Virus record (IMG/VR): IMGVR_UViG_3300048445_000088
Location: 1-21,209 of that record
DNA length: 21,209 nucleotides
Strand: one strand, 5' to 3'
DNA from: a virus
Made by a program: the position numbers and the translations under genes. The notes below the pieces were generated by a model. The model made no database searches. It saw only the letters and a program-made list of their open reading frames with translations, and was not told where the DNA came from. Below are positions 4,587-18,489 of this stretch, one piece after another (position 1 is the stretch's first letter; every line of letters begins with the position of its first letter).

Positions 4587-4606
4587 ATAATAATTTACTA
4601 TATTTG
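4576..4606 (+). promoter_or_regulatory. Bacteroidetes-type promoter for a short RNA
   Basis: TTG at 4576-4578 and TATATTTG at 4599-4606 match the -33 TTTG and -7 TAnnTTTG boxes with 20 bases between them. The -33 box lies in the last codons of the terminase gene. The start of transcription is predicted near 4613, and the first downstream feature is a terminator rather than a gene. Confidence 0.6.
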
Positions 4607-4612
4607 TCTTGT

Positions 4613-4672
4613 CGAACATCATTGGTTGCAGAAACCAAACTAAGCCCCCGAACAATAGTAGGGGGTTTTTTT
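4613..4672 (+). ncRNA. Candidate small RNA, two hairpins
   Basis: The predicted transcript of about 60 bases contains a first hairpin, TTGGTT 4622-4627 with AACCAA 4633-4638 and a five-base loop, and a second, CCCCC 4645-4649 with GGGGG 4661-4665, ending in seven T. It has its own promoter-like boxes at 4576-4606 and no credible reading frame. A free small RNA is possible, as is a plain terminator for the terminase gene that happens to follow a TAnnTTTG box. The 5' end is estimated from the promoter position. Confidence 0.4.
4642..4672 (+). terminator. Rho-independent terminator after terminase
   Basis: CCCCC at 4645-4649 pairs with GGGGG at 4661-4665, with further A-T and G-T closing pairs, and is followed by TTTTTTT at 4666-4672. 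It ends the terminase transcript and isolates it from the repeat region downstream. Confidence 0.8.
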
Positions 4673-4681
4673 ATTCCCTTT

Positions 4682-4717
4682 ACTGAAGAAACTGCAACAA
4701 CTGAAGAAACTGCAACT
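4682..4717 (+). repeat. 18-bp tandem repeat, two copies
   Basis: ACTGAAGAAACTGCAACA at 4682-4699 is followed directly by the same 18 bases with one change at the last position (4700-4717). A decayed continuation (ACTGCA, then TTGGAACTATTGGAAC) runs to about 4749. The period is a multiple of three, but no start codon and ribosome context supports a gene here, and the frame runs through the terminator. Confidence 0.7.
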
Positions 4718-4760
4718 ACTGCAATGGAAGCATTGGAACTATTGGAACCCCTTCCAGTTC

Positions 4761-4869
4761 TTAAACATAGTAGGTATTCTCTTAAACGCAGTAGGTTTGT
4801 GTGATCTGGCCCTTAAACGCAGTAGATAATCTCTTAAACATAGTAGGTTTTTTCTTAAACGCAGTAGGT
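4761..4869 (+). repeat. Iteron array, five 15-bp direct repeats
   Basis: Five copies of TTAAACNNAGTAGGT lie at 4761-4775, 4782-4796, 4813-4827, 4834-4848 and 4855-4869. The only variation is AT or GC at positions 7-8 and one G to A near the end of copy three. Start-to-start spacings are 21, 31, 21 and 21 bases, that is two or three helical turns, so all copies face the same side of the DNA. This is what initiator-binding iterons or a cooperative operator look like. A minus-strand reading gives the peptide unit PT(A/M)FK, but a 10-base step breaks its frame. Confidence 0.85.
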
Positions 4870-4888
4870 TTTTTGGGTTTGGCCTTTT

Positions 4889-5187
4889 CCGATCCGATTT
4901 GATCAAGATCAAAACTCTCTGAACCCGCATAAACACTGGGCTGAGCGATATTCTCACGAAAATGAGAGTAAATAATAGCGATTTTTCTATCCATCAAATT
5001 ATTTTTGCGTATACGTGTGCGGGATACAATATATTGCACCCGATCGGATATCGTCACCGTTTCCGATCCCGATAAGATCCCGATCCGATCGCACCCGCTT
5101 TTTATTTTTGTGATCCGATAACGTCACCCGATCCGATAACTATATATATAAAATTGTATTATCCCGATCCGATAACGTCACCCGATC
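4889..5187. repeat. GATC-rich repeat field, candidate replication origin
   Basis: About a dozen GATC sites fall within 300 bases. GATCCGAT occurs at 4891-4898, 5082-5089, 5112-5119, 5130-5137 and 5166-5173. A longer unit (GATCCGATAACGTCACCC then GATC) is exact at 5112-5133 and 5166-5187, and a variant, GATCGGATATCGTCACC, lies at 5042-5058. Inverted repeats are TTTGATC/GATCAAA at 4898-4913, TCTCA/TGAGA at 4952-4967, CGTATACG at 5008-5015 and CAATATATTG at 5027-5036. An AT-only stretch lies near 5140-5152 between the two long units. Together with the iterons this resembles an origin; a regulatory or partition site is the alternative. Confidence 0.55.
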
Positions 5188-5240
5188 ACCAGCAAAAGAA
5201 AAAATATAAGGGATGAAAAAAAAACAAAAAAAAATGCACT

Positions 5241-5274
5241 TTTGTTTGTGGGTTAAAAATTATTTGTATATTTG
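5241..5274 (+). promoter_or_regulatory. Strong Bacteroidetes promoter of the cassette
   Basis: Two overlapping TTTG boxes at 5241-5248 lie 18 or 22 bases before TATATTTG at 5267-5274, the best match in the window to the TTTG/TAnnTTTG consensus. Transcription would start near 5281, about 24 bases before the first gene of the cassette. A-tracts at 5196-5235 just upstream could act as an UP-like element. Confidence 0.75.
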
Positions 5275-5304
5275 ATCCATAGAAACAATAAAAACAAAAA
5301 ACAA

Positions 5305-5412
5305 ATGGAAACAATTACTTTAAACTTTGAAACAATTACAGCTTTGACAATTGCAGTAACTTTATTTTTATGCGGGATTGCTTTTTTAATAATTAACAAT
5401 AAACATATATAA
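5305..5412 (+). CDS. Single-span membrane protein, 35 aa
   Basis: A 35-residue frame directly after the strong promoter. The N-terminus is METITLNFETIT and residues 13-30 form one hydrophobic helix (ALTIAVTLFLCGIAFLII), followed by a short basic tail. The start context, AAACAAATGGAAAC, matches the A-rich ATGGAAAC starts of the genes at 5415 and 6424. Function is unknown. The clean start context, promoter position and two-base gap to the next gene support it as real. Confidence 0.55.
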   Translation: METITLNFETITALTIAVTLFLCGIAFLIINNKHI

Positions 5413-5414
5413 CA

Positions 5415-5600
5415 ATGGAAACAATACAACAAACTTGCTATGCTAAAAAAAGCAGCTTTACAGAAGTAAGAAAAACAGCTAAAAACAAAAAACGCATAAA
5501 GATCACTAAATTAGATATACTTTATACAATTGTATTGATACAGCTCTTAACCTTTGCTTTATTGCTTAATGCTGTTTTAATTAATTTATTCACTATATAA
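5415..5600 (+). CDS. Small membrane protein, 61 aa
   Basis: The 61-residue product has a polar, basic N-terminal half (KKSSFTEVRKTAKNKKRIK) and a hydrophobic helix at about residues 35-58 (ILYTIVLIQLLTFALLLNAV). A cytoplasmic N-terminus and a single membrane span are expected. It begins two bases after the preceding gene and shares the METI start. The paired membrane peptides at the head of this operon could work together, though nothing shows this. No homology is recognised. Confidence 0.6.
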   Translation: METIQQTCYAKKSSFTEVRKTAKNKKRIKITKLDILYTIVLIQLLTFALLLNAVLINLFTI

Positions 5601-5611
5601 ACTTTATAACA

Positions 5612-6409
5612 ATGAAAACAAAAGAAACAATTGACCTTATTTACAATATTTTTAACCAGCCTTTAACAGCTGGAAACGATCAACAATATAAGAGGCCTAT
5701 CTTAAGTAAAGGATCAACAAACAGTAAAACAGCTAAAAACGATCTAAAAACGTTTATACTGTATCTAGCACCCTATAAACAAAACTCTAAAAATATAAAC
5801 ATTTGTCCAAAAGCATCCGCTGGGTGCGCTGCTGCTTGTCTGTTTACAGCGGGACGCGGCAATATGTCACCAGTAAAAAAAGCGCGAATAAATAAAACAG
5901 AATATTTTATAAGTAACAAAAGGCAATTTATAATACAATTATCTATTGAAATTGTTAAAGCTTATAATAAAGCTAAAAAAGACGGCATAAAAATTGCTTT
6001 TCGTCTTAATGGGACGTCCGATCTAGATTTCATTTATTTGCTTTTAAAATATGCTAATTTGGATATCACCAGTTTAAGAGATCACGCAGTTTTTTATGAT
6101 TATACTGCTATTTTAGGCAAAGCTCAAAAATATATAGCTCACCCTAATTATCACGTCTCTTTTAGTAGGAAGGAGGATAACCAACTGGAAACAGCGCGCG
6201 CAATTGATCACGGTATTAATACAGCTGTAGTTTTTTCCGGTGCATTACCGAAAACGTATCTGGGTGCTAAAGTTATAGACGCTGATAAAAGAGATGACTT
6301 AATGATTACTCACAAAGGGATCATTTTAGGTTTACGCGCCAAAGGTGACGCAAAAAAGGATCAAAGCGGGTTTGTAGTTAAAACAGACGATCAAGGAAAT
6401 TTAATCTAA
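5612..6409 (+). CDS. Conserved phage protein, Gp88/DUF7227-like
   Basis: The 265-residue product belongs to a family I know from many phages and plasmids; I recall the labels Gp88 or DUF7227 but cannot confirm them. Its conserved blocks are all present in order: K-x-x-K-T-A-K..LAP (40-54), C65-P-K-A-S-A-G-C72-x(3)-C76-L-F-T-A-G-R-G (65-83), V-K-K-A-R-x-x-K-T (88-96), F-R-L-N-G-T-S-D (130-137), V-S-F-S-R-K-E-D-N (182-190), V-I-D-A-D (221-225) and a final R-A-K-G (242-245) then G-F-V. The three cysteines and the strand-rich spacing suggest a metal or cluster site in a barrel-like fold, which is inference. Biochemical function is unknown. It is the largest gene of the cassette. Confidence 0.75.
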   Translation: MKTKETIDLIYNIFNQPLTAGNDQQYKRPILSKGSTNSKTAKNDLKTFILYLAPYKQNSKNINICPKASAGCAAACLFTAGRGNMSPVKKARINKTEYFISNKRQFIIQLSIEIVKAYNKAKKDGIKIAFRLNGTSDLDFIYLLLKYANLDITSLRDHAVFYDYTAILGKAQKYIAHPNYHVSFSRKEDNQLETARAIDHGINTAVVFSGALPKTYLGAKVIDADKRDDLMITHKGIILGLRAKGDAKKDQSGFVVKTDDQGNLI

Positions 6410-6423
6410 TAAAGCTTTAAACA

Positions 6424-6624
6424 ATGGAAACGATCACAATTATAAACAGCTTACCAGCAGCACAAAAGAAACAAATTAGACGATCTAAAAAAGAATTCAT
6501 TATTATAAGACGGGATAAAACATATATCCTTACAAACGATCTATATCGATATAGAAACGATTATCAAATAGGAAACGGTAAATTTGCTGTAATTAGCTGC
6601 ATTAAAAACGATATAAAACTATAA
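6424..6624 (+). CDS. Hypothetical basic protein, 66 aa
   Basis: The 66-residue product is not recognised. It is basic and rich in isoleucine and tyrosine (FIIIRRDKTYILTNDLYRYRND), suggesting a small mixed alpha/beta domain that may contact nucleic acid. The start, AAACAATGGAAACG, repeats the context of the genes at 5305 and 5415. It lies 14 bases after the Gp88-like gene and 4 bases before the next one, so it is in the same transcript. Confidence 0.6.
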   Translation: METITIINSLPAAQKKQIRRSKKEFIIIRRDKTYILTNDLYRYRNDYQIGNGKFAVISCIKNDIKL

Positions 6625-6628
6625 GACA

Positions 6629-6808
6629 ATGAGACAATATTATTTGCACTGTTTAAAGATCTGGTATGTTCACAATGATACAGCCTATTATAAAACATAC
6701 ACAAAGTTTTGCAAGGATATAAGACGTACAAAGCTATATAAAAACGCGATCAACTTACTAGACGATCCAGATAATACAGCTTACAAGATAGAGATCTATA
6801 AGGGATAA
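6629..6808 (+). CDS. Hypothetical protein, 59 aa
   Basis: A 59-residue frame starting after AAGACAATG, the A-rich context used across this cassette. It is rich in tyrosine and lysine (YYLHCLKIWYVHNDTAYYKTY) with two cysteines and ends in a short beta-like segment (AYKIEIYKG). It is the last gene before the terminator at 6834-6858 and follows the previous stop by four bases. No family is recognised. Confidence 0.5.
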   Translation: MRQYYLHCLKIWYVHNDTAYYKTYTKFCKDIRRTKLYKNAINLLDDPDNTAYKIEIYKG

Positions 6809-6833
6809 AATAAACTATCTACAGCATACAAAT

Positions 6834-6858
6834 AAGGCCTTTTAATAGGCCTTTTTTT
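6834..6858 (+). terminator. Rho-independent terminator of the cassette
   Basis: AAGGCCT at 6834-6840 pairs with AGGCCTT at 6847-6853 around TTTAAT, followed by a T-tract to 6858. It ends the transcript that starts near 5281, making promoter, five genes and terminator a self-contained unit. Confidence 0.85.
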
Positions 6859-6949
6859 ATTGCCTATAGTTACCTATAGATAACATTATAAAACAGCTTT
6901 AAACAGCATTAAAATAGCTTTGTTTTATGTGCTGCTTTGCTGCTGGTGA

Positions 6950-6973
6950 TATTTAGCAAAGCTTTGATAAATA
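6950..6973. repeat. 24-bp near-perfect palindrome
   Basis: TATTTAGCAAAG at 6950-6961 is followed at once by CTTTGATAAATA at 6962-6973, which is its reverse complement at 11 of 12 positions. The centre is CAAAGCTTTG. No T-tract follows, so an operator for a dimeric regulator is more likely than a terminator. Confidence 0.6.
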
Positions 6974-7180
6974 GATAATGTAGTTAACACGGATATAAAC
7001 AGCACAAACAATATCAATTCAATATCATATCACCTATATACGATAACTAAATTTACAGCTCACATATATAAACGATATAGGATAAGATCACCCACTATTA
7101 TAAAATGATAGTATCTGGAGATGCTCTCACGGATCTGCAAGTATTTAGACGTAATATGAATGTTCTAAGGTGTTAGTTAT

Positions 7181-7364
7181 GCAGTTAGATGAAATCAACC
7201 CCTTTTTGAGACGGGGGTGGCCCAATCGAATAAATCTGAAATCGGGTAGGCGGGTTGGAAAATAAAAATGGAAAACCATTTTATGCTTTACTTACTTGTT
7301 AGCCTAACTGCTGAAGGGATAGCATTACAGCTAAGGGGTTACTCGAAATGTTTTACTACCCCCT
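7181..7364 (+). ncRNA. Candidate structured RNA
   Basis: An outer stem, GCAGTTAG (7181-7188) with CTAACTGC (7304-7311), encloses CAACCC (7196-7201) with GGGTTG (7252-7257), and AAAATGG (7265-7271) with CCATTTT (7276-7282) closed by an AAAA loop. A further hairpin, AGGGGT (7334-7339) with ACCCC (7358-7362), follows. All outer and inner stems nest without conflict, which favours a folded RNA or a DNA structure over coding. No known RNA family is recognised and the ends are only approximate. The ATG of the only long frame here (7268) lies inside the AAAATGG stem. Confidence 0.35.
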
Positions 7365-7436
7365 CTATAACCTTAAATAATGAAAGAAAAACGGTTAGCT
7401 TGAATGGTGCTGGGGGCTGTACAAAGGTTATGAAAG

Positions 7437-7553
7437 ATGAACACCGCAATTGCTAAACTGAGAGTGTCTGATCCAAGTGAGGTATGGTCTTACAAGACAT
7501 TCACAAGTTTGGTAGCTTATACAGATCTACTACTGTTCTATAAAGATAACTGA
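7437..7553 (+). CDS. Doubtful 38-aa reading frame
   Basis: An ATG at 7437, directly preceded in frame by a stop at 7431, opens a 38-residue frame beginning MNTAIAKLRVSDPSEVWSYK. The amino-acid mix is protein-like and it has a plausible hydrophobic segment (LVAYTDLLLFY), but there is no homology I recognise, no operon partner and no clear ribosome context. Its end overlaps the minus-strand copy of the TTTTCAGTTATCTT element at 7543-7556. It may well be chance. Confidence 0.22.
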   Translation: MNTAIAKLRVSDPSEVWSYKTFTSLVAYTDLLLFYKDN

Positions 7554-7605
7554 AAAGTATGAAAAGTGTTCACCCTTTTAGGCCCTTTTTCTGTAATTTA
7601 TATAG

Positions 7606-7672
7606 AGTCTAAATAAGGATGGGAAGCTAACCTTCACTATTTACTTTATCTAGAATGATTCTAAATAAGGGT
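7606..7672 (+). repeat. Direct repeat TCTAAATAAGG, two copies
   Basis: TCTAAATAAGG occurs at 7608-7618 and again at 7660-7670, 52 bases apart, about five helical turns. Both lie in the untranslated DNA before the tail operon, so they may be sites for one regulator. Confidence 0.45.
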
Positions 7673-7691
7673 AATATGAACAGTTTTATTG

Positions 7692-7710
7692 TTTTGCAGT
7701 TATCATACTA
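7692..7710 (+). promoter_or_regulatory. Looser copy of the TTTTCAGTTATC element
   Basis: TTTTGCAGTTATCATACTA matches the 17-base element at 3343 and 18094 apart from one inserted G and two changes. It ends 12 bases before the ATG at 7723, so three structural-gene starts share it. Confidence 0.45.
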
Positions 7711-7722
7711 TAAACATATTGT

Positions 7723-8508
7723 ATGGCGATATTAGATTTCGAAGTTAGAGTTCCAGCACGATTATCAGACATCAAGCTGAAAGAGTACCAAGAGTATATG
7801 AAAGTATACGATGGGTTGGAGCGAGATGAAGAAGGCAACGTATTAAACACTAAGGAACAGAATGATTTCTTAAGCTTGAAGATGCTAGACATCTTCTGTG
7901 GATTAAGCTTGAAGGAGAGCTATAAACTTCCTTTAAAAGCATTTGATGTTATCCTACAAAGAGTGTCAGAATGTTTCAGAGAAGAAACTCCTTTATTAAA
8001 AGAGTTTACGATGACAGATCCAAGTGGCGATTCAATTAAGTTTGGCTTTATTCCAAAGTTGGATGATATGAGTATCGGAGAGTTTATTGACTTGGAGGGA
8101 TATTTTAATGATTGGTCGAATGTTCATAGAGCTATGGCTGTTTTATATAGGCCAGTAGTGTTTGAAAAGAACGGCTTATATGATATAGAAGAATATAGTG
8201 GTACAGAAAAATGGGCAGATGTAATGAAGGACGCTCCAATTAACGTAGTTCTAGGTGCAAAGCTTTTTTTTTATCGTTTAGGCAACAAATTGTCGAAACT
8301 TATGATGAGCTATATGCTGAAGGAGGAAATGGAACAGAATACTCATCAGAAGCCAATTTTGGAAGAAAGTGGGGATGGTATCAGTCAATTTATGCAATGG
8401 CAAAAGGCGATGTCAGAAGACTTGATGAGGTTACCAAGCTCAATATACACAAATGCCTCACGTGGCTACAATTCGAAAAAGAAAAGAGTGAAATCGAAGC
8501 AAAAATGA
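7723..8508 (+). CDS. Tail assembly chaperone, zero-frame product
   Basis: This 261-residue protein is read without frameshifting. Its first 183 residues contain the RVPARLSDIKLKEYQEYMKVYDG opening and the GFIPKLDDMSIGEFIDLE block known to me from the chaperone-position gene of Bacteroidetes phages. Residues 184-261, after the T-run, are helical and end in a basic tail (YNSKKKRVKSKQK), with an SGDGISQFMQW segment. Tail assembly chaperones bind the tape measure during tail building and are not part of the virion. The position upstream of the tail genes fits, but the gene lies about 4 kb before the tape measure rather than next to it. It is the counterpart of the short gpG form in lambda. Confidence 0.7.
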   Translation: MAILDFEVRVPARLSDIKLKEYQEYMKVYDGLERDEEGNVLNTKEQNDFLSLKMLDIFCGLSLKESYKLPLKAFDVILQRVSECFREETPLLKEFTMTDPSGDSIKFGFIPKLDDMSIGEFIDLEGYFNDWSNVHRAMAVLYRPVVFEKNGLYDIEEYSGTEKWADVMKDAPINVVLGAKLFFYRLGNKLSKLMMSYMLKEEMEQNTHQKPILEESGDGISQFMQWQKAMSEDLMRLPSSIYTNASRGYNSKKKRVKSKQK

Positions 8509-8528
8509 TTAAACAACAATACAAATGA
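7723..8528 (+). CDS. Tail assembly chaperone, -1 frameshift product
   Basis: A -1 shift in the run of nine T (8264-8272) joins residues 1-183 of the zero frame to a second open frame that runs 8244-8528, giving a predicted 268-residue protein. The new part (residues 184-268) includes KWGWYQSIYAMAKGD at 216-230, DEVTKL at 235-240, and LQFEKEKSEIEAKMIKQQYK at 249-268. I recognise this block, tryptophan-rich start, DEVTKL, then FEKEK, from tail proteins of Bacteroidetes phages. The shifted frame ends in TGA at 8526-8528, which overlaps the next ATG as ATGA. The zero frame stops 18 bases earlier, so the shifted frame is the one coupled to the next gene. It corresponds to the long gpGT form. A homopolymer sequencing error is the alternative. 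Confidence 0.72.
8264..8272 (+). other. Frameshift site, nine T in a row
   Basis: In the zero frame the run reads CTT TTT TTT TAT, so it contains a canonical slippery heptamer T TTT TTT at 8265-8271. Two phenylalanine codons can re-pair after a one-base backward slip. A run of nine T also allows transcript slippage by RNA polymerase. The shifted frame is open only after the stop at 8241-8243, so the shift must occur between there and the end of the T-run or later. No strong downstream hairpin is evident by eye. Confidence 0.7.
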
Positions 8529-8986
8529 CACAAGTATACGACATATTAGACAAACTAAGAGATAAGCTAATGGGCAATCCTAATGTGTTCTTGGTTAAGT
8601 TTGGAGATCTGGACGAAATAGATTTGGACAAGACTGAAATATACCCATTAGCCCACTTAGATATAGCTCCTAATATTACGTTTGTGGATAACGTTATTGA
8701 GTTTTCTATTTCGCTTATGGTTTTAGACATTGTAGACATCACAAAGAAAGACGACAAGACAAAGCCTTTTTACGGGAATGACAACCTAGTTGACGTTTTA
8801 AACACTCAACTTGGAGTTGTTTCTGATATTGTCACTTCTTTACAAAGAGGTAGCTTATTTGACAACCAAGTACAGTTAGTAAATGAGCCAACTGTGGAGA
8901 AACTAGTCGATAAGTATGAAAATATGTTAGCTGGATGGGGTGCTAGTTTTACTGTTAGAGTTCCTAATAACTTTAGCATATGTTAA
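8525..8986 (+). CDS. Conserved structural protein, probable tail terminator
   Basis: The 153-residue product belongs to a family I recognise from Bacteroidetes phages, with VKFGDLDEIDLDKTEIYPLAH in the first third, VIEFSISLMVLDIVD in the middle, a DVLNTQLGVVSDIVTSLQRG helix pair, and an AGWGASFTVRVPN ending. The strands and helices are arranged like tail terminator or tail completion proteins, which cap the tail and join it to the head. The next gene is gp10-like, also a connector, which supports this. The ATG is coupled to the stop of the frameshifted chaperone. Exact function is inferred. Confidence 0.65.
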   Translation: MTQVYDILDKLRDKLMGNPNVFLVKFGDLDEIDLDKTEIYPLAHLDIAPNITFVDNVIEFSISLMVLDIVDITKKDDKTKPFYGNDNLVDVLNTQLGVVSDIVTSLQRGSLFDNQVQLVNEPTVEKLVDKYENMLAGWGASFTVRVPNNFSIC

Positions 8987-9471
8987 AGTCTGTAAAGACA
9001 AGAGCTGCATTAGGTAGGATTGGGAAACTTCTATACCAGAAGTACCAATCTCAAATGAAAGCGGATAAAACTTATGCTACTGGGAAGCTATCTAAGAGCT
9101 TTAAGTATAAAGTTGAAGACTTTAGCTTAGATATGATTGCTGACTGGAAAGTGAAATATGTTGACGAGGGATCTGCTCCAAGCAAGGTTGCACCTTATAA
9201 CGCAATAAGAGCTTGGGCAAAAGCAAAAGGCATTCAGCCAAAAAGAATAAACGGAAAGAGGAAGACTTTTAATCAAATGGCATTTGCTATAGCGAGTCAT
9301 ATATCTAAAAATGGGACTATACAGCGATTTGCGTCTAATGGAGGTGGAAGTAACTTAATAGACAAAGTACTAGGACGATATAAAAACTATATAACTAAAG
9401 AAGTATCTGAAGCGTTTCAACAAGACTTGAAGGATGCTTTAGATAAAAACATAAAAACTAATGGCAACTAA
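8980..9471 (+). CDS. HK97 gp10-like tail completion protein
   Basis: The 163-residue product resembles the HK97 gp10 family of neck and tail completion proteins. Supporting features are a basic helical start, the strand-rich KYVDEGSAPSK segment around residue 63-73, the AIRAWAKAKGIQP helix near 78-91, then a helix and the IASHISKNGTIQ block near 110-121. It overlaps the preceding gene by seven bases and the next by eleven, so all three are translated together. Neighbouring connector-type genes support the call. A capsid-linked role rather than a tail role is possible. Confidence 0.75.
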   Translation: MLKSVKTRAALGRIGKLLYQKYQSQMKADKTYATGKLSKSFKYKVEDFSLDMIADWKVKYVDEGSAPSKVAPYNAIRAWAKAKGIQPKRINGKRKTFNQMAFAIASHISKNGTIQRFASNGGGSNLIDKVLGRYKNYITKEVSEAFQQDLKDALDKNIKTNGN

Positions 9472-10597
9472 AATAAACGTAAGAAGCCCGTATTTCATCA
9501 AAGTATCTGATGCTAGTTTAGCTTCTGTAGAATTTAACTTATATATATGGGATGGGGTGGAAACATCTATCCCGGGTACTGCTACGTATACATTCACGAA
9601 GGATGTTGCGGGTGGTAATACCTACATTACTTTTGAAATAGCTGATTACGTTAGGGATTACATTATTACAGAATACGGTGACTACTCTACAAATGCAGTA
9701 TGGGTTTACTGGTCGTATCAAATGTACTCCGATTTAGCTAGAACTACAGCCATTGGCACTCCAATTACGGGACAAAGGTTAGCTGTGGATGGATATGGCT
9801 TCTTTGAGGATGGAATTCATCCCGGAGAATCTACAGTAGACGTATTAATGCAAGACAACACCGATATTTACTACTTAGATGGACAAGATATCGTATTTGC
9901 ACTATATGACGAGGGTGCTACAAATGTCTCTATAGATGGGACATCTGTACCGGCAGTTAGGTGGGAGCAAGTTTTAGAATACTGGGAGCAATTTGCAGAA
10001 ACTTGGGAATCTGGAGGCACGGATCAAGCCATCGGTGACTCTACAGACTCCTCCAACAAGATTGTCTACGTTAAAATCACAGAAACAGAGCTTTTTGGGG
10101 ATATAGAAACAATTACGGTGACCAAAAGCGTTGCTGCTGGTGGAGGAACACTTACAGTTAAGCTGATTAAGGTTTGTGAACCTAAGTATACACCTATGAA
10201 AGTCATATTCTACAATAAATACGGTGCTATGCAAGACTTGTGGTTCTTTAAGAAGTCACAAACAACACTAAATGTTACATCTGACACATTTAAACGCAAC
10301 ACTGTTGATTTTAGCGTTACACCAACCTATAACACAGCTTACCACCAAATAAAATCATTCAATGTAAACGGAAAAGAATCAATTACGCTAAATACTGGTT
10401 TTCTTCCAGAAAACTTTAACGGATTAATCAAGCAAATTATGCTATCTGAGGAAGTTTGGATTGACAATGGCACAAATGTATTGCCAGTTCGTCCAACAAC
10501 CAACTCATTAAACATCAAAAAAACGGTAAACGACAAGCTTATCAGTTACACAATGAACTTTGAGTATGCATTTGATAAAATAAACAACATCAGATAA
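9461..10597 (+). CDS. Conserved tail or baseplate protein, 378 aa
   Basis: The 378-residue product is a beta-rich protein of a type seen next to the 675-residue tail protein in Bacteroidetes phages. It opens with TKINVRSPYFIKVSDASLAS and contains an EIADYVRDYI segment near residues 60-70, then strand-rich domains and a tryptophan-containing VRWEQVLEYWEQFAETWES segment at about 166-186. A conserved distal tail or baseplate role is likely from position between connector and tape measure, but I cannot name a characterised homologue. No cleavage, signal peptide or membrane segment is seen. The last base of its stop is the first base of the next start. Confidence 0.6.
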   Translation: MATKINVRSPYFIKVSDASLASVEFNLYIWDGVETSIPGTATYTFTKDVAGGNTYITFEIADYVRDYIITEYGDYSTNAVWVYWSYQMYSDLARTTAIGTPITGQRLAVDGYGFFEDGIHPGESTVDVLMQDNTDIYYLDGQDIVFALYDEGATNVSIDGTSVPAVRWEQVLEYWEQFAETWESGGTDQAIGDSTDSSNKIVYVKITETELFGDIETITVTKSVAAGGGTLTVKLIKVCEPKYTPMKVIFYNKYGAMQDLWFFKKSQTTLNVTSDTFKRNTVDFSVTPTYNTAYHQIKSFNVNGKESITLNTGFLPENFNGLIKQIMLSEEVWIDNGTNVLPVRPTTNSLNIKKTVNDKLISYTMNFEYAFDKINNIR

Positions 10598-12624
10598 TGA
10601 AGCAAGACATCCAATTATATGTAGAAGGTCAAAGACTAGATTTATTCGAGGATGAAAGCTTACAGATAACCTCATCCATACAAGATGTTAGGGATATTTC
10701 TAAGGTTTTTACTGATTATAGCCAATTTTTTTCCGTAAAGGCGTCCAGAAACAACAACCTTATCTTTAAACACTTCCACGACAACAATATTACAAATGGA
10801 TTTGATGCTAGAAAGAAGGTAGATGCTGTTATTGAGGTCAATCACCAAACATTCCGAAAGGGAAAGATACGTTTAGACGGTGTTCAGATGAAAAACAACA
10901 GAGCATACGCCTATAAACTAACTTTTTTTGGTAATACAGTATCATTAAAAGACATTGTAGGTGAAGATTTGCTTAGTGATCTTGATTTTAGTGCTTACGA
11001 CCAATTATATAGTTCTTCTAATGTGATTTCTAAGCTACAGAGTGGAGCAACAGTTGATGGAGTAACTGATGCGGTGATTGTTCCTTTAATTAGTGCTGAA
11101 CAAAGATGGTTTTACAACAGCGGAGGGTCTAATGAGGAAGGAAACTTAGAGCCTACAGCTGGAGCGGGTGGTTATTACCGAAACTTAAAGTTCGCTATAC
11201 GACTTTACTGTATTATAAAAGAAATAAAAAACAAATATCCAGCTTTAAATATATCTGAAGACTTCTTTAACGCCACTAACGCTAACTTTTACGGTTTATA
11301 TATGTGGTTGCACCGAGAAAGCGGTCAAATGCCCGTAGAAGGCACTTATTCGGCTTATTTAGACAAGTTTCCAGCTCTATCTAGCTGGGAAGGTGTGTAT
11401 ATGAATGAAAGTTACTTCGAAATATCGGATGTTAACCCATTTCAAGCTCAATACTACTCTACTTCGCTTGATTTAACTGTTTCTTCGGCTTCTGTTCAGT
11501 TTAACGTCGTTTTAATAAAGAATAGTGTAGAGGTTCAGCGTTTTAATGGCAAAACTGGAGCTACATACTACTTTATAGATTTCGGCAATCTAACAAACGG
11601 TACTTATAAGATTAAAATTGAGTATACAGCCGCTTTTTCAGCTACAACAGCTACTAATATAGACTTCACTAGAGTTCCCGTGTCGGGTTCTAATACTAGC
11701 AACTTCTTCTTGTTTACAGCTAGTCAAACTTTAGCTACAGATTTCCAGTTTGTCGTATCTGATAATATGCCAGAAATGAAGGTTATTGACTTTCTTACTG
11801 GGCTATTTAAGATGTTTAACCTAACTGCTTACGAAGAAAGCGGAACTATTGTAGTTAAAACCTTAAACTCATACTACGCTTCGGGTAAAACTGGAGCTAA
11901 CGCATACGACATAACTAAGTATGTGGATATGAGCGATAGTGAAATTGAAAGAGCTACTATATACAAGCAGATAAACTTTGGATTTGATGGTTATGGTAGT
12001 TTACTCACTAAAAAACACAACGAATTGTTTAATAAGCAATGGGGTGAGGAGAAGTATAATATAGAGCAAAAATACGACGGAGAAATATACAAACTTTCAG
12101 TTCCGTTTGAGCATATGAAGTTTGAGAAGCTTCTTGATTTAAACGATGATTCAGAAACTCAAATTCAATGGGGATGGATGTCTGATAGCTTGGACGAGAA
12201 TAATGTTCCAAGTGCTTATATAGGAAAACCGCTTGTGTTTTATGCTCCAATCAGATTAACCAATGACTACATAAAGATAAAAGATGATGGCGGAACTACT
12301 ACAATAACTCAGTACTATATGCCTAGTAACTCAGTAGGATTCACAGATTCACAGACTATAAATTTCTACCCAGAAATAAACGAATATGCTTATACTGTTT
12401 TTAATGATACGCTATTTAGCACTTACTATCAAGATTACATAGAAGATGTGTTTGACTATAGAGCTAGAATAGTAAAAGTTAAAACAATACTGCCGTTAAA
12501 CATACTAGTAAACAGTAAACTCAACGATAGGTTCATTGTAAACGGATCTTCTTATAAAATAAATTCAATAACAACCAATTTACTAAATAATAAAAGTGAA
12601 TTAGAACTAATACCAGACTTATGA
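10597..12624 (+). CDS. Large conserved tail/baseplate protein, 675 aa
   Basis: The 675-residue product begins with IQLYVEGQRLDLFEDESLQI, followed by VFTDYSQFFSVKASRNNN, IFKHFHDNNITNGFDARKK and YKLTFFGNTVSLKDIVG blocks in the first 130 residues. I recognise this opening from tail or baseplate proteins widespread in flavobacterial phages and prophages. The middle (about 270-400) looks like beta-sandwich domains that could bind carbohydrate or form tail-tip surface. The size and position suggest a tail tip or baseplate hub protein, which is inference. Its stop overlaps the next ATG by four bases. Confidence 0.7.
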   Translation: MKQDIQLYVEGQRLDLFEDESLQITSSIQDVRDISKVFTDYSQFFSVKASRNNNLIFKHFHDNNITNGFDARKKVDAVIEVNHQTFRKGKIRLDGVQMKNNRAYAYKLTFFGNTVSLKDIVGEDLLSDLDFSAYDQLYSSSNVISKLQSGATVDGVTDAVIVPLISAEQRWFYNSGGSNEEGNLEPTAGAGGYYRNLKFAIRLYCIIKEIKNKYPALNISEDFFNATNANFYGLYMWLHRESGQMPVEGTYSAYLDKFPALSSWEGVYMNESYFEISDVNPFQAQYYSTSLDLTVSSASVQFNVVLIKNSVEVQRFNGKTGATYYFIDFGNLTNGTYKIKIEYTAAFSATTATNIDFTRVPVSGSNTSNFFLFTASQTLATDFQFVVSDNMPEMKVIDFLTGLFKMFNLTAYEESGTIVVKTLNSYYASGKTGANAYDITKYVDMSDSEIERATIYKQINFGFDGYGSLLTKKHNELFNKQWGEEKYNIEQKYDGEIYKLSVPFEHMKFEKLLDLNDDSETQIQWGWMSDSLDENNVPSAYIGKPLVFYAPIRLTNDYIKIKDDGGTTTITQYYMPSNSVGFTDSQTINFYPEINEYAYTVFNDTLFSTYYQDYIEDVFDYRARIVKVKTILPLNILVNSKLNDRFIVNGSSYKINSITTNLLNNKSELELIPDL

Positions 12625-12773
12625 TTAAAGAAATTGTAGACTTACTAAACACTAATGATTGGTATATTGGAGATGAAGATATAGATATAGCTAAAGGAAA
12701 ATATAAAGCCCCTATCAACTTAAAAGACCTAAAACAAACTATAAAAAGAAACAACTATAAAGATGGCAGATAG
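12621..12773 (+). CDS. Small hypothetical protein between tail genes, 50 aa
   Basis: A 50-residue frame joined by ATGA to the gene before and overlapping the tape measure start by 11 bases. It has an acidic first half (DWYIGDEDIDIAKG) and a basic end (LKQTIKRNNYKDGR). Overlap on both sides strongly suggests it is translated, perhaps to couple tail-protein and tape measure expression. Its sequence is not recognised. Confidence 0.55.
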   Translation: MIKEIVDLLNTNDWYIGDEDIDIAKGKYKAPINLKDLKQTIKRNNYKDGR

Positions 12774-14676
12774 AACAGAAATATTATACACCGTTAGAGT
12801 TGATACGGCTAACGGAAAGATAAAAATAGATGGATTAACAAAAGGTTTTGTTAGTGCAAAAACTGCTTTAAAAAATCTGAACGAAGAGCTTTCAAACCAT
12901 AATCAACAATTAAGGAATAATATAGACAAAACTGGTCTTGCTGGAGCTACATTAGTAGAGCTTGGTAGACTTATATCTGACTCTAACTACGGTTGGAGAG
13001 CGATGGCGAATAACTTGTCTCAGTTATCCACTTTAATGATTACTCTTATAAGCACAACAAAAGGCGTTGGAAATGCTTTATCTGCTTTAGGGAAAGCCTT
13101 TAGAGGCCCACTAGGACTTATTGTTGTTTTTCAAGCTGGAGTTGCTCTTCTTGAAAAAATGGCTATTAATGAGGAGAAAGCCGCTAGAGAAGCTAAAGCT
13201 CTTGATAACAGCTTTGTTAAATTAAGAAAAACGGTTAACGCATATTTAACCGAATTAAAGGATGCGAATTTAGAGGAAAGTAAGCGGGAGATTTTACTTA
13301 GAAGAGTTGGAGCTCAGTCTAATGATCTTAAAGAAATAATAGACAATCATAAAGGTAGTCTAAAAGATCTTAGGGAAGAGATAAATAAGTATATGGAAGT
13401 TCAGTCGTTAAGAATGAAATTGGATAAACTTATGGTTCAGTCAGAAGAGCAAGATGCTAAACATATGGAGAATGTTAGAATTCTTAGAGAAAACGACATT
13501 GAATCTATGAAAGAAGCCATTGCAGACCAAGTTTCTTGGCTGCCTAATTGGTTTGTTACAATAACCGAAGATATTTTCTCTTCGGAGCAGTCGATAAGAG
13601 ATAGGTTCAAAAATTATATAGCTGACTCTGGATATCAAAGTAAAGTAGGGTATGATGAGCAAATAGACGCAATACTAGAGAGACTAAAAGAACTAGGAGA
13701 TTCAACTACAAAAACAACTGATACTAACTTAAAAGAATTAAATAAGCTAATTGAAAACTGGAGAAAGAAAAGACTAGAAATACAAACTAGAAGCGACTTC
13801 GAACTACTAAATGTTCAAGAAGATATTGAAATTGAGAAAATGAAAGCTCTCGGAGCTACAGAACAACAGTTGCTTGATTTAAGGATTTACTTCTCAAACA
13901 AAAGAATGCAATTATTTGAGGCAGAGCATAAATCTATAGCTGAAATTCCAAAAAAATACCAATTAGAAATGTCTAAAGGGGAAATGGCTGTTAGGCAACT
14001 TACGGAGGAGGAATTTAAAAGAGGTCAGCAAATATTATTTGAAAATAGACTCCAAGCTGCTTCAGAATACGCACAACAAGCAGTAGGAGTACTTGACGCT
14101 GCTTTCCAAAGAGAATTAACTATAGAACAGAACAAGACTAACGCAATAAATAACGAGCTAAAAGCTAGGCTTAGAAATGAGAACTTATCTGTATCTGAAA
14201 AAAAGAAATTGCAGAATCAAATAGCTCAGAATGATGAAGCTTTAAGGGTTAAGCAACAGAAGATAGAAGAGAAGAGGTTTAAAATGCAAAAAGCGGCTAA
14301 CATATCTCAAGCACTTATTGAAACCTACTTAGCTGCGGCTAAAGCATTAAGAAATGCTGGAGGTGTTCCAACTGGTTTACCTCCTATGTACGCAACCATC
14401 GCTACTGGACTTCTTCAAGTAGCCGCTATTGCACAGCAGAAATTCCAAACTAGTTCTGCTAATATGACTGGAGCGGTTACGGAAGTTGATGCGGGTCAAT
14501 CTCAAGGCTCAACTGCACCAGACTTCAATATAGTGGGTCAATCAGCACAAAGCCAATTAGCTCAAACAGTGGCTGGACAGTTAGGAAAACCTACTAAAGC
14601 ATACATAGTATCGAAAGACGTTACTACTGCTCAAGAATTAGATAGAAACAGAATTAACGGAGCTTCATTAGGCTAA
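12763..14676 (+). CDS. Tail tape measure protein
   Basis: The 637-residue product has the layout of a tape measure protein, which sets tail length and is guided into the cell on DNA injection. The first 80 residues are mixed, residues 85-135 include hydrophobic stretches (LMITLISTTKGVGNALSALG and GLIVVFQAGVALLEKM) that could insert in the membrane, and residues 140-510 are long charged coiled coil. The C-terminal part has an alanine and glycine-rich segment (GLPPMYATIATGLLQVAAIAQ) near 540. At the usual 1.5 angstrom per residue, this length would allow a tail of about 95 nm, an estimate only. No lysozyme or peptidase motif is visible. Confidence 0.85.
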   Translation: MADRTEILYTVRVDTANGKIKIDGLTKGFVSAKTALKNLNEELSNHNQQLRNNIDKTGLAGATLVELGRLISDSNYGWRAMANNLSQLSTLMITLISTTKGVGNALSALGKAFRGPLGLIVVFQAGVALLEKMAINEEKAAREAKALDNSFVKLRKTVNAYLTELKDANLEESKREILLRRVGAQSNDLKEIIDNHKGSLKDLREEINKYMEVQSLRMKLDKLMVQSEEQDAKHMENVRILRENDIESMKEAIADQVSWLPNWFVTITEDIFSSEQSIRDRFKNYIADSGYQSKVGYDEQIDAILERLKELGDSTTKTTDTNLKELNKLIENWRKKRLEIQTRSDFELLNVQEDIEIEKMKALGATEQQLLDLRIYFSNKRMQLFEAEHKSIAEIPKKYQLEMSKGEMAVRQLTEEEFKRGQQILFENRLQAASEYAQQAVGVLDAAFQRELTIEQNKTNAINNELKARLRNENLSVSEKKKLQNQIAQNDEALRVKQQKIEEKRFKMQKAANISQALIETYLAAAKALRNAGGVPTGLPPMYATIATGLLQVAAIAQQKFQTSSANMTGAVTEVDAGQSQGSTAPDFNIVGQSAQSQLAQTVAGQLGKPTKAYIVSKDVTTAQELDRNRINGASLG

Positions 14677-14711
14677 AATAAGACAATAATTAACAAATAA
14701 GTTACCTTATT

Positions 14712-15653
14712 ATGGAAGAACTAGATATTTTTGAGCTATTTATAGACGAAGAAAACGAATACAGCGGTATTGATGCTGTATCTATCGTAGAGCATCCCGC
14801 TATAGAAGAAGACTTCATTGCATTGAAAGATGGCAAGGTTCAACTTGCAGAAATCGATACAGAAAAACGTATTCTTTTAGGCCCAGCTCTTATACCAAAT
14901 AAGAAAATATACAGAAGAAATGGAGAAGACGAATATTACATCTTCTTTAGCGAAGATACTGTTCGTAAAGCTTCAGAGTTATTTCTCTCAAGAGGCAAAC
15001 AGAACAATTCGACATTGGAACACGAGGTCGAGATCGGAGGGCTATCAGTCGTAGAATCTTGGATCATCGAAGATGAAGTTAAAGACAAATCAAGAAAATA
15101 CAATCTAAGCTTACCCGTAGGAACTTGGATGATTTCAGTAAAAGTAAACAACGACCAAATATGGGAAGAGTTTGTGAAAACTGGAATGGTAAAAGGTTTC
15201 TCAATCGAAGGGTTCTTTACTGATAAACTTGATGAAAGACCACAAGAGCCTACCGAAGAGGAAATGGCTGAGATGGAAGCTTTATCACTATTAGAAGACT
15301 TCTTATCTGAAGTAGGAGAAGTAGAGTTAGAGTCATATAACGATTATCCAGAATCCGCTTCCAACAATGCTAAAAAGGTATTGAAGTGGAGAGAAGAATA
15401 CCCTAACGAAATCAAGGGAATGACTTCTGTAGGATGGCGAAGAGCAAACCAATTAGCTAAGAAAGAAAAGTTAACTCGCTCAACGATTGCTCGTATGGCT
15501 TCATTTAAGAGACACCAAAAGAATGCTGAAATAGCTGAAGAGTATAAAAGCACACCTTGGAAAGATGCTGGGTATGTAGCTTGGCTCGGATGGGGTGGTA
15601 CTTCGGGAATCAATTGGGCTATCAATAAACTTAAATCGATAGATAATGAATAA
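14712..15653 (+). CDS. XkdF-like prohead protease with C-terminal domain
   Basis: The 313-residue product has two parts. Residues 1-175 match the XkdF-type prohead serine protease: LGPALIPNKKIYR (56-68), STLEHEVE (100-107) with the likely catalytic H104, LPVGTWMISVKV (134-145), and VKGFSIEGFF (160-169) with the likely catalytic S164. It would mature the capsid by cutting the scaffold. Residues 207-310 form a separate domain (YNDYPESASNNAKKVLKWRE, GWRRANQLAKKEKL, GYVAWLGWGG) that I know from many phage structural proteins. The link between them is acidic. Catalytic residues are assigned by position from the family. The ATG is preceded by AAGTTACCTTATT, a relative of the repeated upstream element. 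Confidence 0.85.
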   Translation: MEELDIFELFIDEENEYSGIDAVSIVEHPAIEEDFIALKDGKVQLAEIDTEKRILLGPALIPNKKIYRRNGEDEYYIFFSEDTVRKASELFLSRGKQNNSTLEHEVEIGGLSVVESWIIEDEVKDKSRKYNLSLPVGTWMISVKVNNDQIWEEFVKTGMVKGFSIEGFFTDKLDERPQEPTEEEMAEMEALSLLEDFLSEVGEVELESYNDYPESASNNAKKVLKWREEYPNEIKGMTSVGWRRANQLAKKEKLTRSTIARMASFKRHQKNAEIAEEYKSTPWKDAGYVAWLGWGGTSGINWAINKLKSIDNE

Positions 15654-15792
15654 CGATTGGGAAATTAGTATTGGACTTTACCCGGGAGTTCTCTTTGGGG
15701 TAAGAACATACGAAATAAGTGAAACGGAAACAGATCACTTATTTTATTTGCCACTTATCTATTTATGCTTAACAACTATAAAAGATGAATAA
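15646..15792 (+). CDS. Small conserved phage protein, 48 aa
   Basis: A 48-residue frame that begins inside the end of the protease gene. It contains ISIGLYPGVLFGVRTYE, then HLFYLPLIYLCLT, a pattern I recognise as recurrent in flavobacterial phages next to the protease and scaffold genes. The C-terminal half is hydrophobic, but short for a full membrane helix. Function is unknown. The recurrence and overlap with the neighbours make a real gene likely. Confidence 0.65.
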   Translation: MNNDWEISIGLYPGVLFGVRTYEISETETDHLFYLPLIYLCLTTIKDE

Positions 15793-15943
15793 GACAGTAA
15801 GTAGAACATCTCCTAAGGGAGGACGAAGAGGTTGCTTAGGACCAGATGGTAAATACTCTATCGAGAATTGCGATGGTTCTTTACAAGCACAAGGTGTTGG
15901 TTCTTTGGTAAATCAAGGAGAAAGCACCATTACAAGGGAGTAA
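15785..15943 (+). CDS. Small Gly/Cys phage protein, 52 aa
   Basis: A 52-residue frame overlapping the previous stop by eight bases. It reads as RTSPKGGRRGCLGPDGKYSI, then ENCDGSLQAQGVGSL. I recognise this from small head-region proteins of flavobacterial phages, in which CL, then a D-G-x-Y-S segment, then CDGSLQAQG is conserved. Two cysteines at residues 17 and 29 could form a metal or disulphide pair. Function unknown; it may be a minor virion component. Confidence 0.65.
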   Translation: MNKTVSRTSPKGGRRGCLGPDGKYSIENCDGSLQAQGVGSLVNQGESTITRE

Positions 15944-16009
15944 AAATACAACACATTGTTACACCAATAGTTATCTAATTAGATTATTAATTAATTAATC
16001 CAAATATAT

Positions 16010-16486
16010 ATGAACGCTAAAGACGTAGTTGAAAAACTAAAAGAAGTATTACTTGGAGCTACAGAAGAGGTTGTTGAGACCCCAGCTGTAGAAGAGCAAG
16101 TAGAACTTCAAGAAGAAGTTGCAACTGACGAGGTTCAAGAAGAAGTAAAAGAAGAATTGGCTGAGGATGCTGTTTCTGAAGATGCTCCAGTTGAAGCTCA
16201 ATATGCAACTAAAGAGGAATTGAATCAAGAAATCGCTCAATTAAGAGCTATGATTGACGAGATTATGTCTGGAATGGGAGCTGAAGCTTCTAAGGACGCT
16301 CCTCAAGAACTTTCTGCTGACGAAGTAGAACAACCTCAAGAAGAGGTAGAATTATCGGCTGATGAAGTTGCTGAAATTAAGCACAACCCAGAAGCTATGG
16401 TTGAAAACAAAGAATTGAACTTATATGCTCAATCTAGAAAACAATCAACCTTTGACAAAGTATTATCTAAAATCTCTAATAAATAA
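16010..16486 (+). CDS. Scaffold-like acidic protein
   Basis: The 158-residue product is extremely acidic and low in complexity (long runs of E with V, A and D) with a short coiled coil at 67-90 and a basic C-terminus (LYAQSRKQSTFDKVLSKISNK). This is the usual design of a capsid scaffold: a disordered acidic rod with a basic helix that binds the capsid protein. The gene sits between the protease and major capsid genes, the expected place. It follows an AT-rich leader with AATAGTTATCTAATT, a weak relative of the repeated element. The assignment is by architecture and context, not by homology. Confidence 0.75.
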   Translation: MNAKDVVEKLKEVLLGATEEVVETPAVEEQVELQEEVATDEVQEEVKEELAEDAVSEDAPVEAQYATKEELNQEIAQLRAMIDEIMSGMGAEASKDAPQELSADEVEQPQEEVELSADEVAEIKHNPEAMVENKELNLYAQSRKQSTFDKVLSKISNK

Positions 16487-16491
16487 ACAAA

Positions 16492-17400
16492 ATGGCTACT
16501 ACTACTAGTATTACTACTACTTACGCTGGAGAATCGGCTTCTAAATACATCGCTGCTGCTCTTCTCTCTGCTTCTACTATCGAAAAAGGATTAGTTGAAG
16601 TAAAACCAAACATTAAGTACAAAGAAGTTATCAAGAAACTCGCTACGGGAGACTTGTTAGCTGACGGAACTTGCGATTTCTCTGCAACTTCTACTGTTAC
16701 TTTGACTGAAAGAATCTTAACTCCAAAAGAGTTACAAGTAAACCTACAATTGTGCAAGGCCGATTTTAGATCGGACTGGGATGCGATTTCTATGGGATAC
16801 TCTGCTTTCGATTCTTTACCTCCATCTTTCGCTGATTTCTTAATCGCTCACGTTGCTGCTAAAGTAGCTGAGAAGAATGAGCAAAACATCTGGGCTGGAG
16901 TTTCTTCTAACTCTGGAGAATTCGACGGATTCTTAACTTTAGCTGCTGCTGATGCAGACGTAGTTGATGTTACTGGAGCTGTTGGAGGAATCACTAATTC
17001 TAACGTTATCGCTGAATTAGGTAAAGTAAGAGATGCTATTCCTAACTCTATCTACAGCAAAGAAGACTTATCTATCAAAGTTGCTCCAAACGTAGCAAAA
17101 GCTTACATCGCTGCTCAAGCTGCTTTAGGATATGCTAACCTTTACCACGATGGTAAATCTAACTTAAACTTTGAAGGAATCGCTTTAGAAGTATGTGACG
17201 GAATGACTGCTTCTTATATGGTTGCTTCTCAGAAATCAAACCTTTACTTCGGTACTGGATTGTTATCTGACCACAACGAAGTTAAAGTTATTGATATGGC
17301 TGACTTAGACGGATCTCAAAACGTACGTATCGTAATGAGATTGACTGCTGGTGTTCAGTACGGAATCGGTTCTGAAATCGTTCTTTATACTCCATCATAG
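16492..17400 (+). CDS. Major capsid protein, HK97-fold
   Basis: The 302-residue product is taken as the major capsid protein. It follows the scaffold gene by five bases, has a terminator right after it, and its codons are strongly biased to few choices (GCT, GGA, TCT), the mark of a very highly expressed gene. Content fits the HK97 fold: a long N-arm, the SFADFLIAHVAAKVAEKNEQNIWAG helix at about 114-138 (spine-helix position), a YSKEDLSIKVAPNVAKAYIAAQ segment in the P-domain, and a final strand block with QYGIGSEIVLYTP. No Ig or decoration domain is seen. Sequence identity to a named capsid cannot be shown from here. Confidence 0.88.
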   Translation: MATTTSITTTYAGESASKYIAAALLSASTIEKGLVEVKPNIKYKEVIKKLATGDLLADGTCDFSATSTVTLTERILTPKELQVNLQLCKADFRSDWDAISMGYSAFDSLPPSFADFLIAHVAAKVAEKNEQNIWAGVSSNSGEFDGFLTLAAADADVVDVTGAVGGITNSNVIAELGKVRDAIPNSIYSKEDLSIKVAPNVAKAYIAAQAALGYANLYHDGKSNLNFEGIALEVCDGMTASYMVASQKSNLYFGTGLLSDHNEVKVIDMADLDGSQNVRIVMRLTAGVQYGIGSEIVLYTPS

Positions 17401-17424
17401 TCATAGAGTAAAGCAATAATCTAT

Positions 17425-17464
17425 AAGGGTGGGTAAGCCAAACGAGCCTACTCACCCTTTTTTA
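17425..17464 (+). terminator. Strong terminator after the major capsid gene
   Basis: AAGGGTG at 17425-17431 pairs with CACCCTT at 17453-17459, and the stem continues with four more pairs and two after one mismatch, to a loop near CAAACGA. A run of T follows (17458-17463). It limits read-through from the capsid gene. Confidence 0.88.
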
Positions 17465-17486
17465 ATAACTAATAAAACATATAAAA

Positions 17487-18023
17487 ATGGCTTGTGATAA
17501 TTTATCTCTTTCAAGAATAGAACCTTGTAAAGACTCCGTTGGAGGGATTACTGCTGTTTACTTCATCAACTTTGGCGATGCTGGATTAGACATTCAAATG
17601 AATGCGACTAACGAGGATGTTATCGATTCTTTCGGTAACACGGTTACTCCAGATGTTAACGTATTCAAATACGAAGTAAAAGGTAGTTCTTCTTTCACTC
17701 AAAACATTCAGTCAGATAGAGCAACTGGAACAACTGCTTTCGAGCAAGTTCTAGAGCTTACGCTTAAGAAATTAAGCATTGCTGACCACAAAGAACTCAA
17801 ATTGTTATCTTACTCTAGACCTCACGTTTTAGTAGAGGATAACAACGGAAATATCTTCTTCGCTGGTAAAGAATATGGTATGGACGTAACTGGTGGTACT
17901 ATCGTAACTGGTGCTGCTATGAACGAAATGTCTGGATATACTCTTACCTTAACGGGTATGGAGAAAGCTCCAGCTAACTTCTTAGGAGCAACTATTGCTG
18001 CTGCTGGTGGTATCGTAAACTAA
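17487..18023 (+). CDS. Major tail tube protein
   Basis: The 178-residue product has the composition and gene position of a tail tube protein and shares sequence blocks I know from flavobacterial phage tail tubes: an opening ACDNLSLSRIEPCKDSVGGI, then VFKYEVKGSSSFTQNIQSDRATGT at about 59-82, HKELKLLSYSRPHVLVEDNNG near 99-119, and a C-terminal SGYTLTLTGMEKAPANFLG. It is beta-rich and has two cysteines near the N-terminus. Biased codons and flanking terminators on both sides suggest high, separate expression, as expected for a protein present in many copies. It lies within the head module rather than beside the tape measure. Confidence 0.8.
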   Translation: MACDNLSLSRIEPCKDSVGGITAVYFINFGDAGLDIQMNATNEDVIDSFGNTVTPDVNVFKYEVKGSSSFTQNIQSDRATGTTAFEQVLELTLKKLSIADHKELKLLSYSRPHVLVEDNNGNIFFAGKEYGMDVTGGTIVTGAAMNEMSGYTLTLTGMEKAPANFLGATIAAAGGIVN

Positions 18024-18045
18024 GAATTTAACACTTAGGCAATAG

Positions 18046-18071
18046 AAGGGAGCATTTAGCTCCCTTTTTTT
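18046..18071 (+). terminator. Strong terminator after the tail tube gene
   Basis: AAGGGAGC at 18046-18053 pairs perfectly with GCTCCCTT at 18059-18066 around ATTTA, with T to 18071. The tail tube gene is thus isolated by terminators at 17425 and here. Confidence 0.9.
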
Positions 18072-18093
18072 GTATCTAAAACAAAAAACAGCT

Positions 18094-18110
18094 TTTTCAG
18101 TTATCTTATT
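18094..18110 (+). promoter_or_regulatory. 17-base upstream element, second identical copy
   Basis: TTTTCAGTTATCTTATT here directly abuts the ATG at 18111 and is identical to 3343-3359 before the terminase. It follows a terminator by about 20 bases, as expected for a new promoter or start region. Confidence 0.55.
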
Positions 18111-18488: not shown

Positions 18489-18489
18489 T

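Follow-up and report, generated by a model that had tools for sequence, protein, structure and literature searches.

Radical-SAM enzymes use an iron-sulfur cluster for difficult chemistry. In spore photoproduct lyase, QueE, NifB, EpeE, PFL activase, and viperin, a partial beta/alpha barrel carries a three-cysteine loop after strand 1 and conserved residues at the C-terminal ends of the strands. The canonical cysteine motif of these enzymes is CX3CX2C. Non-canonical spacings of the three cysteines can also bear the cluster, as described for HmdB, QueE (CX14CX2C form), PhnJ, and ThiC in passages of two papers (PMC4389238 and PMC3742179). In those passages, it is the first gap that differs in HmdB and QueE, and CX2C is retained, whereas the phage protein described here has CX3C at the second gap.

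This protein belongs to the phage family GP88 (Pfam PF17338; phrog_1617). GP88 was matched in 267 phage records, of which 237 were Mycobacterium phages and the others were Pelagibacter, Roseobacter, Puniceispirillum, Stenotrophomonas, Rhizobium, Mesorhizobium, Caulobacter, Tunturiibacter, and other phages, yet the outputs of the libraries searched (Pfam, PHROG, NCBIfam, and PADLOC) assign it no activity. GP88 was seldom found in host genomes (2 of 296 Bacteroidota genomes) and was present in 1 of 72,556 plasmid records. Our literature search, which covered mostly open-access papers, found none that gives GP88 or PF17338 an activity, and a mycobacteriophage structure-annotation paper (PMC12363180) gave no match for GP88 or for the word radical. 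The gp88 that appears in a passage of PMC8066314 is a concanavalin-like protein, and the radical-SAM phage protein mentioned in a passage of PMC10783043 is unrelated to GP88.

The window analyzed here is a stretch of 21,209 nucleotides from the virus record IMGVR_UViG_3300048445_000088. The ORF at positions 5612 to 6409 on the plus strand starts with ATG and encodes 265 amino acids. The encoded protein matched PF17338 over residues 36 to 257 (E = 1.9e-31) with 110.1 bits, above the curated cut-off of 24.4 bits for the whole-protein score, and matched phrog_1617 over profile positions 33 to 272 of 273 (E = 4.7e-58, 197.5 bits). NCBIfam and PADLOC gave no match for the protein. The match to the family is full length, every invariant residue is common to both, and we found no essential difference. 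PF17338 also matched all 92 members of our main alignment (A2) at E ≤ 1. Between the window gene and a copy of 89% identity in another locus (L011), dN was 0.091 and dS was 0.476, giving a dN/dS of about 0.19; the GP88 gene is therefore under purifying selection. Longer proteins with this domain also occur. In Tunturiibacter phage Tunturi_5 (locus L003, 5419 to 6756), the GP88 domain lies at the C-terminal end of a protein annotated as a minor head protein, and GP88-like regions were seen in proteins of 995 to 1211 amino acids among viral structure matches. Another family, phrog_1392, is weakly similar to GP88 and was considered as a route by which GP88 might be tied to a known function. It matched five of nine genomes, but all five matches overlapped already collected GP88 genes by coordinates, and it was rejected; the Escherichia coli control genome contains a phrog_1392 match as well.

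A preliminary description of this ORF took the protein for a likely enzyme whose metal- or cluster-bearing site is formed by C65, C72, C76, R131, N133, S183, S185, and R186. All eight residues occur at these positions, and C65, C72, and C76 are the sole cysteines of the protein. The claim that they are conserved held for the three cysteines, R131, N133, and S185, which are identical in all 92 rows of A2, but not for the other two: position 183 is Thr in 84 rows and Ser in one, the window's own, and position 186 is Arg in 45. The invariant residues of A2 also include K39, L77, G81, L132, T135, D137, Y164, D228, and L241, and K42 (91 of 92 rows), D163 (90), and K244 (90) are nearly invariant, with D225 identical in 88 rows; among these, K39, K42, L77, G81, D137, D163, Y164, D228, L241, and K244 were absent from the earlier list. 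The homologues were drawn from viral contigs, genome contigs, and phage records. Viral contigs were sampled with the patterns RLNGTSD and FYDYTK and a T-x-I-L-Y-L-A-P-like pattern, and genome contigs were sampled with RLNGTSD. The invariance of these blocks, RLNGTSD and FYDYTK among them, is thus partly built in, because they served as search patterns, whereas the cysteines played no part in the sampling. A separate alignment of 23 rows collected without those patterns (A1) showed the same invariant residues, except that N133 was replaced by Gly in one row.

The three cysteines were invariant in all 140 homologues whose ORF spans the cysteine region, with the pattern C-x(5-9)-C-x3-C. The extended pattern C-x(5-9)-C-x3-C-L fits 139 of the 140 loci, and Ile replaces Leu in the remaining one. 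In A2, the spacing is C-x6-C-x3-C in 75 of 92 rows, and the first gap is 7 in 10 rows, 9 in 4, and 5 in 3. In the window protein, the proposed cluster ligands form the loop C65-x6-C72-x3-C76-L-x3-G81-R82 (codons 65 to 82, positions 5804 to 5857, plus strand). No fourth invariant Cys or His was found in the 92 rows of A2, and three invariant cysteines without such a residue are as expected of a site-differentiated cluster. Three cysteines could also hold a metal without SAM, and many early phage proteins act through binding. The protein might then be a barrel that works by binding, for instance by inhibiting a host or defence protein, with no radical chemistry; its cysteines would hold structural zinc or form a non-catalytic iron-sulfur site. 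We consider this explanation unlikely: structural zinc usually has a fourth protein ligand, and the invariant polar residues R131, N133, T135, D137, Y164, S185, and D228, which are predicted to lie on the active-site side of the barrel, fit an enzyme.

The AlphaFold2 model of the protein, built from the 92-row alignment, had a mean pLDDT of 91.3 and a pTM of 0.87. Strands were predicted at residues 46 to 50, 128 to 131, 159 to 165, 180 to 185, 204 to 208, 219 to 223, and 238 to 242, with helices alternating in most places, and the predicted fold resembles a partial beta/alpha barrel. A long loop that follows predicted strand 1 contains the cysteines, and radical-SAM enzymes have their cluster loop in the same place. 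The other conserved blocks on the plus strand are RLNGTSD at the end of predicted strand 2 (codons 131 to 137, positions 6002 to 6022), FYDYT at the end of strand 3 (codons 161 to 165, positions 6092 to 6106), the invariant S185 at the end of strand 4 (positions 6164 to 6166), and D225 and D228 after strand 6 (codons 225 to 228, positions 6284 to 6295). The core at residues 40 to 255 contains 14 residues with at least 99% identity. Nine of them coincide with a strand end or follow it directly, five (C65, C72, C76, L77, and G81) are in the loop after strand 1, and none is in the N-terminal strand zone. The C-terminal strand zone makes up 26% of the core yet holds nine of the 14 residues, and 2 of 216 circular shifts reached that count. 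Placement was scored by secondary-structure position along the sequence, not by three-dimensional coordinates. By this measure, the conserved residues are gathered on the C-terminal strand side rather than scattered over the surface, the latter being the arrangement that the preliminary description had named as contrary to a single active site.

Plain Foldseek searching of the PDB with this model gave no match at E ≤ 0.001, and its top rows included rhamnose isomerase, transaldolase, and glycerophosphodiesterases at E values of 0.2 to 0.8. We then considered a structural realignment that covered 999 of the top 1000 PDB chains from Foldseek, of which the best 50 were examined. Rows 1 to 25 were all radical-SAM enzymes from nine families (SPL, QueE, NifB, EpeE, ChlB, anSME, TigE, Mmp10, and TYW1) with Z scores of 4.5 to 6.6; for this tool, a Z below 8 may reflect a mere common arrangement, and every Z obtained here was below 8. 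Radical-SAM enzymes accounted for 27 of the best 50 chains. The first protein of another kind appeared in row 26 at Z 4.5, tied with the last radical-SAM rows. The comparison with TIM-barrel radical-SAM enzymes suggested in the preliminary description placed these enzymes first in rank, with these modest scores.

A second AlphaFold2 model was made from a divergent homologue in Candidatus Uabimicrobium (L138; pLDDT 87.0) and was also beta/alpha barrel-like. On realignment, its first six rows were PFL activase, ChlB, QueE, viperin, ChlB, and TYW1 at Z scores of 5.2 to 5.6, and 13 of its first 18 rows were radical-SAM enzymes, with glycoside hydrolases and aldolases interspersed at Z 5.0 and below. 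The agreement of the two models is supportive, but they are not fully independent because the alignment of the homologue reuses most of the same sequences. The barrel-like fold predicted in both models and the radical-SAM enzymes as best structural matches are consistent with the proposed metal- or cluster-site enzyme; the variable R186 and Z scores below 8 weaken that proposal.

The plain Foldseek rows also bear on whether the protein could be another beta/alpha-barrel enzyme (an aldolase, an isomerase, a phosphodiesterase-like enzyme, or a relative of tRNA-guanine transglycosylase or DpdA) in which the cysteines play another role. Barrels other than radical-SAM enzymes do follow the radical-SAM rows in both realignments, but all of them fall below the first 25 rows for the window model or the first 6 for the homologue. 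The zinc site of tRNA-guanine transglycosylase is CxCx2C plus a His, located late in the barrel. In GP88, the cysteine spacing differs, the cysteines follow strand 1, and no His is invariant, so the zinc site of the transglycosylase and DpdA type was not found. Taken together, another barrel enzyme seems quite improbable.

The sequence comparisons were less favorable than the structural ranking. Pfam Radical_SAM (PF04055) did not match the window protein, for which GP88 was the only match at E 0.1, and a profile search of PDB sequences returned only chance-level matches and no radical-SAM chain. In hhalign comparisons, 29 radical-SAM proteins had a mean score of 16.0 and 60 decoys, sampled from 70, had a mean of 13.7, with length uncontrolled; the highest scorer was a decoy. 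The eight best radical-SAM alignments covered short ranges, mostly off the cysteine loop. These tests do not establish homology of GP88 to radical-SAM enzymes, and this missing sequence link, together with the modest Z scores, also counts in favor of the non-catalytic metal site discussed above.

We also compared GP88 with the phage Gp37/Gp68 family (DUF5131, PF07505), which itself has a three-cysteine motif. The first two cysteines are spaced C-x6-C in both families, and the Gp37/Gp68 label is attached to GP88 in two marine phage records (AP013541 and AP013545). However, the DUF5131 motif, C-x6-C-x2-C-Y, ends differently, and its other conserved blocks are not those of GP88. DUF5131 was absent among 25 of the 42 Pfam families matched by the 92 members. 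Profile-profile alignment by hhalign gave a probability of 0.33 and an E value of 0.18 for one pair, and homology was rejected. The possibility that GP88 is a distant member of DUF5131 is disfavored as very remote. In viral predicted structures, named matches at E ≤ 0.001 were of the GP88 type, DUF7227, one with a Gp37/Gp68-like label, and uncharacterized proteins, while several rows were nameless, and a family missing from such match lists is not thereby excluded. Because Radical_SAM of Pfam did not match, no radical-SAM chain was found by the PDB profile search, and DUF5131 is not homologous by profile comparison, we claim for GP88 a likeness to the radical-SAM superfamily and not membership in it. 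The likeness lies in the barrel-like predicted fold, the cysteine loop, and the strand-end residues; GP88 departs from these enzymes in having C-x(5-9)-C-x3-C instead of CX3CX2C, as well as in the sequence profile and the Z scores given above.

Next, we examined the surroundings of the gene in the window. Genes for terminase, capsid, and portal and the tail-side genes are in the same order as their relatives in Nonlabens phage P12024L, and therefore the host of this phage is probably a Bacteroidota bacterium. The structural order at 7723 to 20780 looks unusual (terL, tail-side genes, protease, capsid, portal), and P12024L has the same circular order. In P12024L, terL ends at 23946 and the relative of the window gene at 7723 to 8508 matches from 23949, 3 bases after. 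In the window, the two genes are separated by about 3.1 kb (4587 to 7722), an interval in which GP88 is accompanied by four small ORFs, a promoter-like site, and a terminator-like hairpin. GP88 also lies between terL and a relative of the 7723 to 8508 gene in four other loci (L038, L039, L043, and L046). This interval is probably a cargo insertion or cassette with its own transcription signals, each of which is weak alone.

The promoter-like site ahead of the cassette (5245 to 5274, plus strand) was found by motif search and consists of TTTG, 18 bp, and TATATTTG, in the manner of a Bacteroidota-type promoter. The motif occurred three times in the window, whereas 0.93 occurrences would be expected by chance, and 8 of 100 shuffles reached three. 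It is followed on the plus strand by a small ORF of 35 amino acids with a hydrophobic stretch (5305 to 5412; its start is inferred, and the longer listed ORF is 5272 to 5412) and by an ORF of 61 amino acids with a hydrophobic C-terminal half (5415 to 5600), which has a relative in L010 and L011 only. Downstream of GP88, also on the plus strand, are an ORF of 66 amino acids that begins 14 bases after the gene (6424 to 6624) and an ORF of 59 amino acids that is the last of the presumed transcription unit (6629 to 6808). The relative of the 66-amino-acid ORF in L038 (7772 to 7960) is upstream and not downstream of GP88, and therefore the small cassette genes shuffle around GP88. The terminator-like hairpin with a T run follows at 6834 to 6860 (plus strand); two such hairpins were found against 1.5 expected. 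Two repeat regions also lie between terL and the cassette. Just past terL, at 4759 to 4887, units of 18 to 21 bases are repeated around CTTAAACGCAGTAGGTTTTTT, detected as three copies by TRF and as a 56-base family by repeat search. In the non-coding stretch before the cassette, CCCGATCCGATAACGTCACC-like units are repeated at 5037 to 5187 and are possibly protein-binding or packaging sites.

Among the 92 non-redundant loci, 42 have at least 4 kb on both sides of GP88, and terL was within 4 kb of GP88 in 26 of these 42, as counted with one terminase similarity cluster, which may miss others, in loci picked by similarity to the window and not at random. With genome lengths of 40 to 60 kb, our rough estimate of the expected share is one fifth. 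As for a partner gene, the small ORFs directly downstream of GP88 were mostly unrelated from locus to locus and gave no ground for a model with a partner gene or precursor peptide. DNA methyltransferase genes recur near GP88 in some loci.

Early phage genes are often located at genome ends. GP88 lay no more than 2 kb from a record end in 16 of 29 records, and all 16 copies pointed inward, although deposited ends may be arbitrary. These 29 of the 267 records comprised 25 non-Mycobacterium and 4 Mycobacterium records, including RHEph21, a partial match of 26%; duplicates, one same-coordinate record, two Caulobacter records, and the other Mycobacterium records were set aside. In Pelagibacter phage HTVC134P, GP88 occupies 505 to 1239 and precedes the gene for the phage RNA polymerase. 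Cluster A mycobacteriophages such as Heffalump carry GP88 in the right arm or at the right end, and in their relatives L5 and D29 the right-arm genes are expressed first, early in infection, according to a passage of PMC5712189. Because the gene is often beside the packaging end and transcribed inward, we infer that GP88 would usually be made early and may have a role in host takeover or counter-defence, perhaps through modification of nucleotides or nucleic acids.

Altogether, the protein encoded at 5612 to 6409 is best read as a phage enzyme of a non-canonical, radical-SAM-like kind that is probably made early. On the evidence of the predicted models and the invariant residues, we think it somewhat probable that its mode of action resembles that of a radical-SAM enzyme, with a cluster on C65, C72, and C76, bound SAM, strand-end residues, and a 5'-deoxyadenosyl radical. 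In such a mechanism, each of three irons in a [4Fe-4S] cluster would be held by one of the cysteines that follow strand 1, and the fourth iron would be left free for S-adenosylmethionine to bind. The residues at the ends of strands 2, 3, 4, and 6 (RLNGTSD, FYDYT, S185, and D225/D228) would bind SAM and the substrate. One-electron reduction would then give the 5'-deoxyadenosyl radical, which would modify a target early in infection.

A bolder proposal, which we offer tentatively and regard as rather doubtful, is that GP88 constitutes a new phage-specific branch of non-canonical (C-x6-C-x3-C) radical-SAM enzymes, serving early takeover or counter-defence in phages that are unrelated to one another and infect mycobacteria, SAR11 bacteria, rhizobia, and Bacteroidota. 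Should GP88 prove to be a radical-SAM enzyme, standard anaerobic biochemistry could be applied at once to an orphan gene that is common in genetically tractable phages, and the catalytic cysteines could be mutated in a laboratory mycobacteriophage. The known range of cluster-binding cysteine spacings would also grow.
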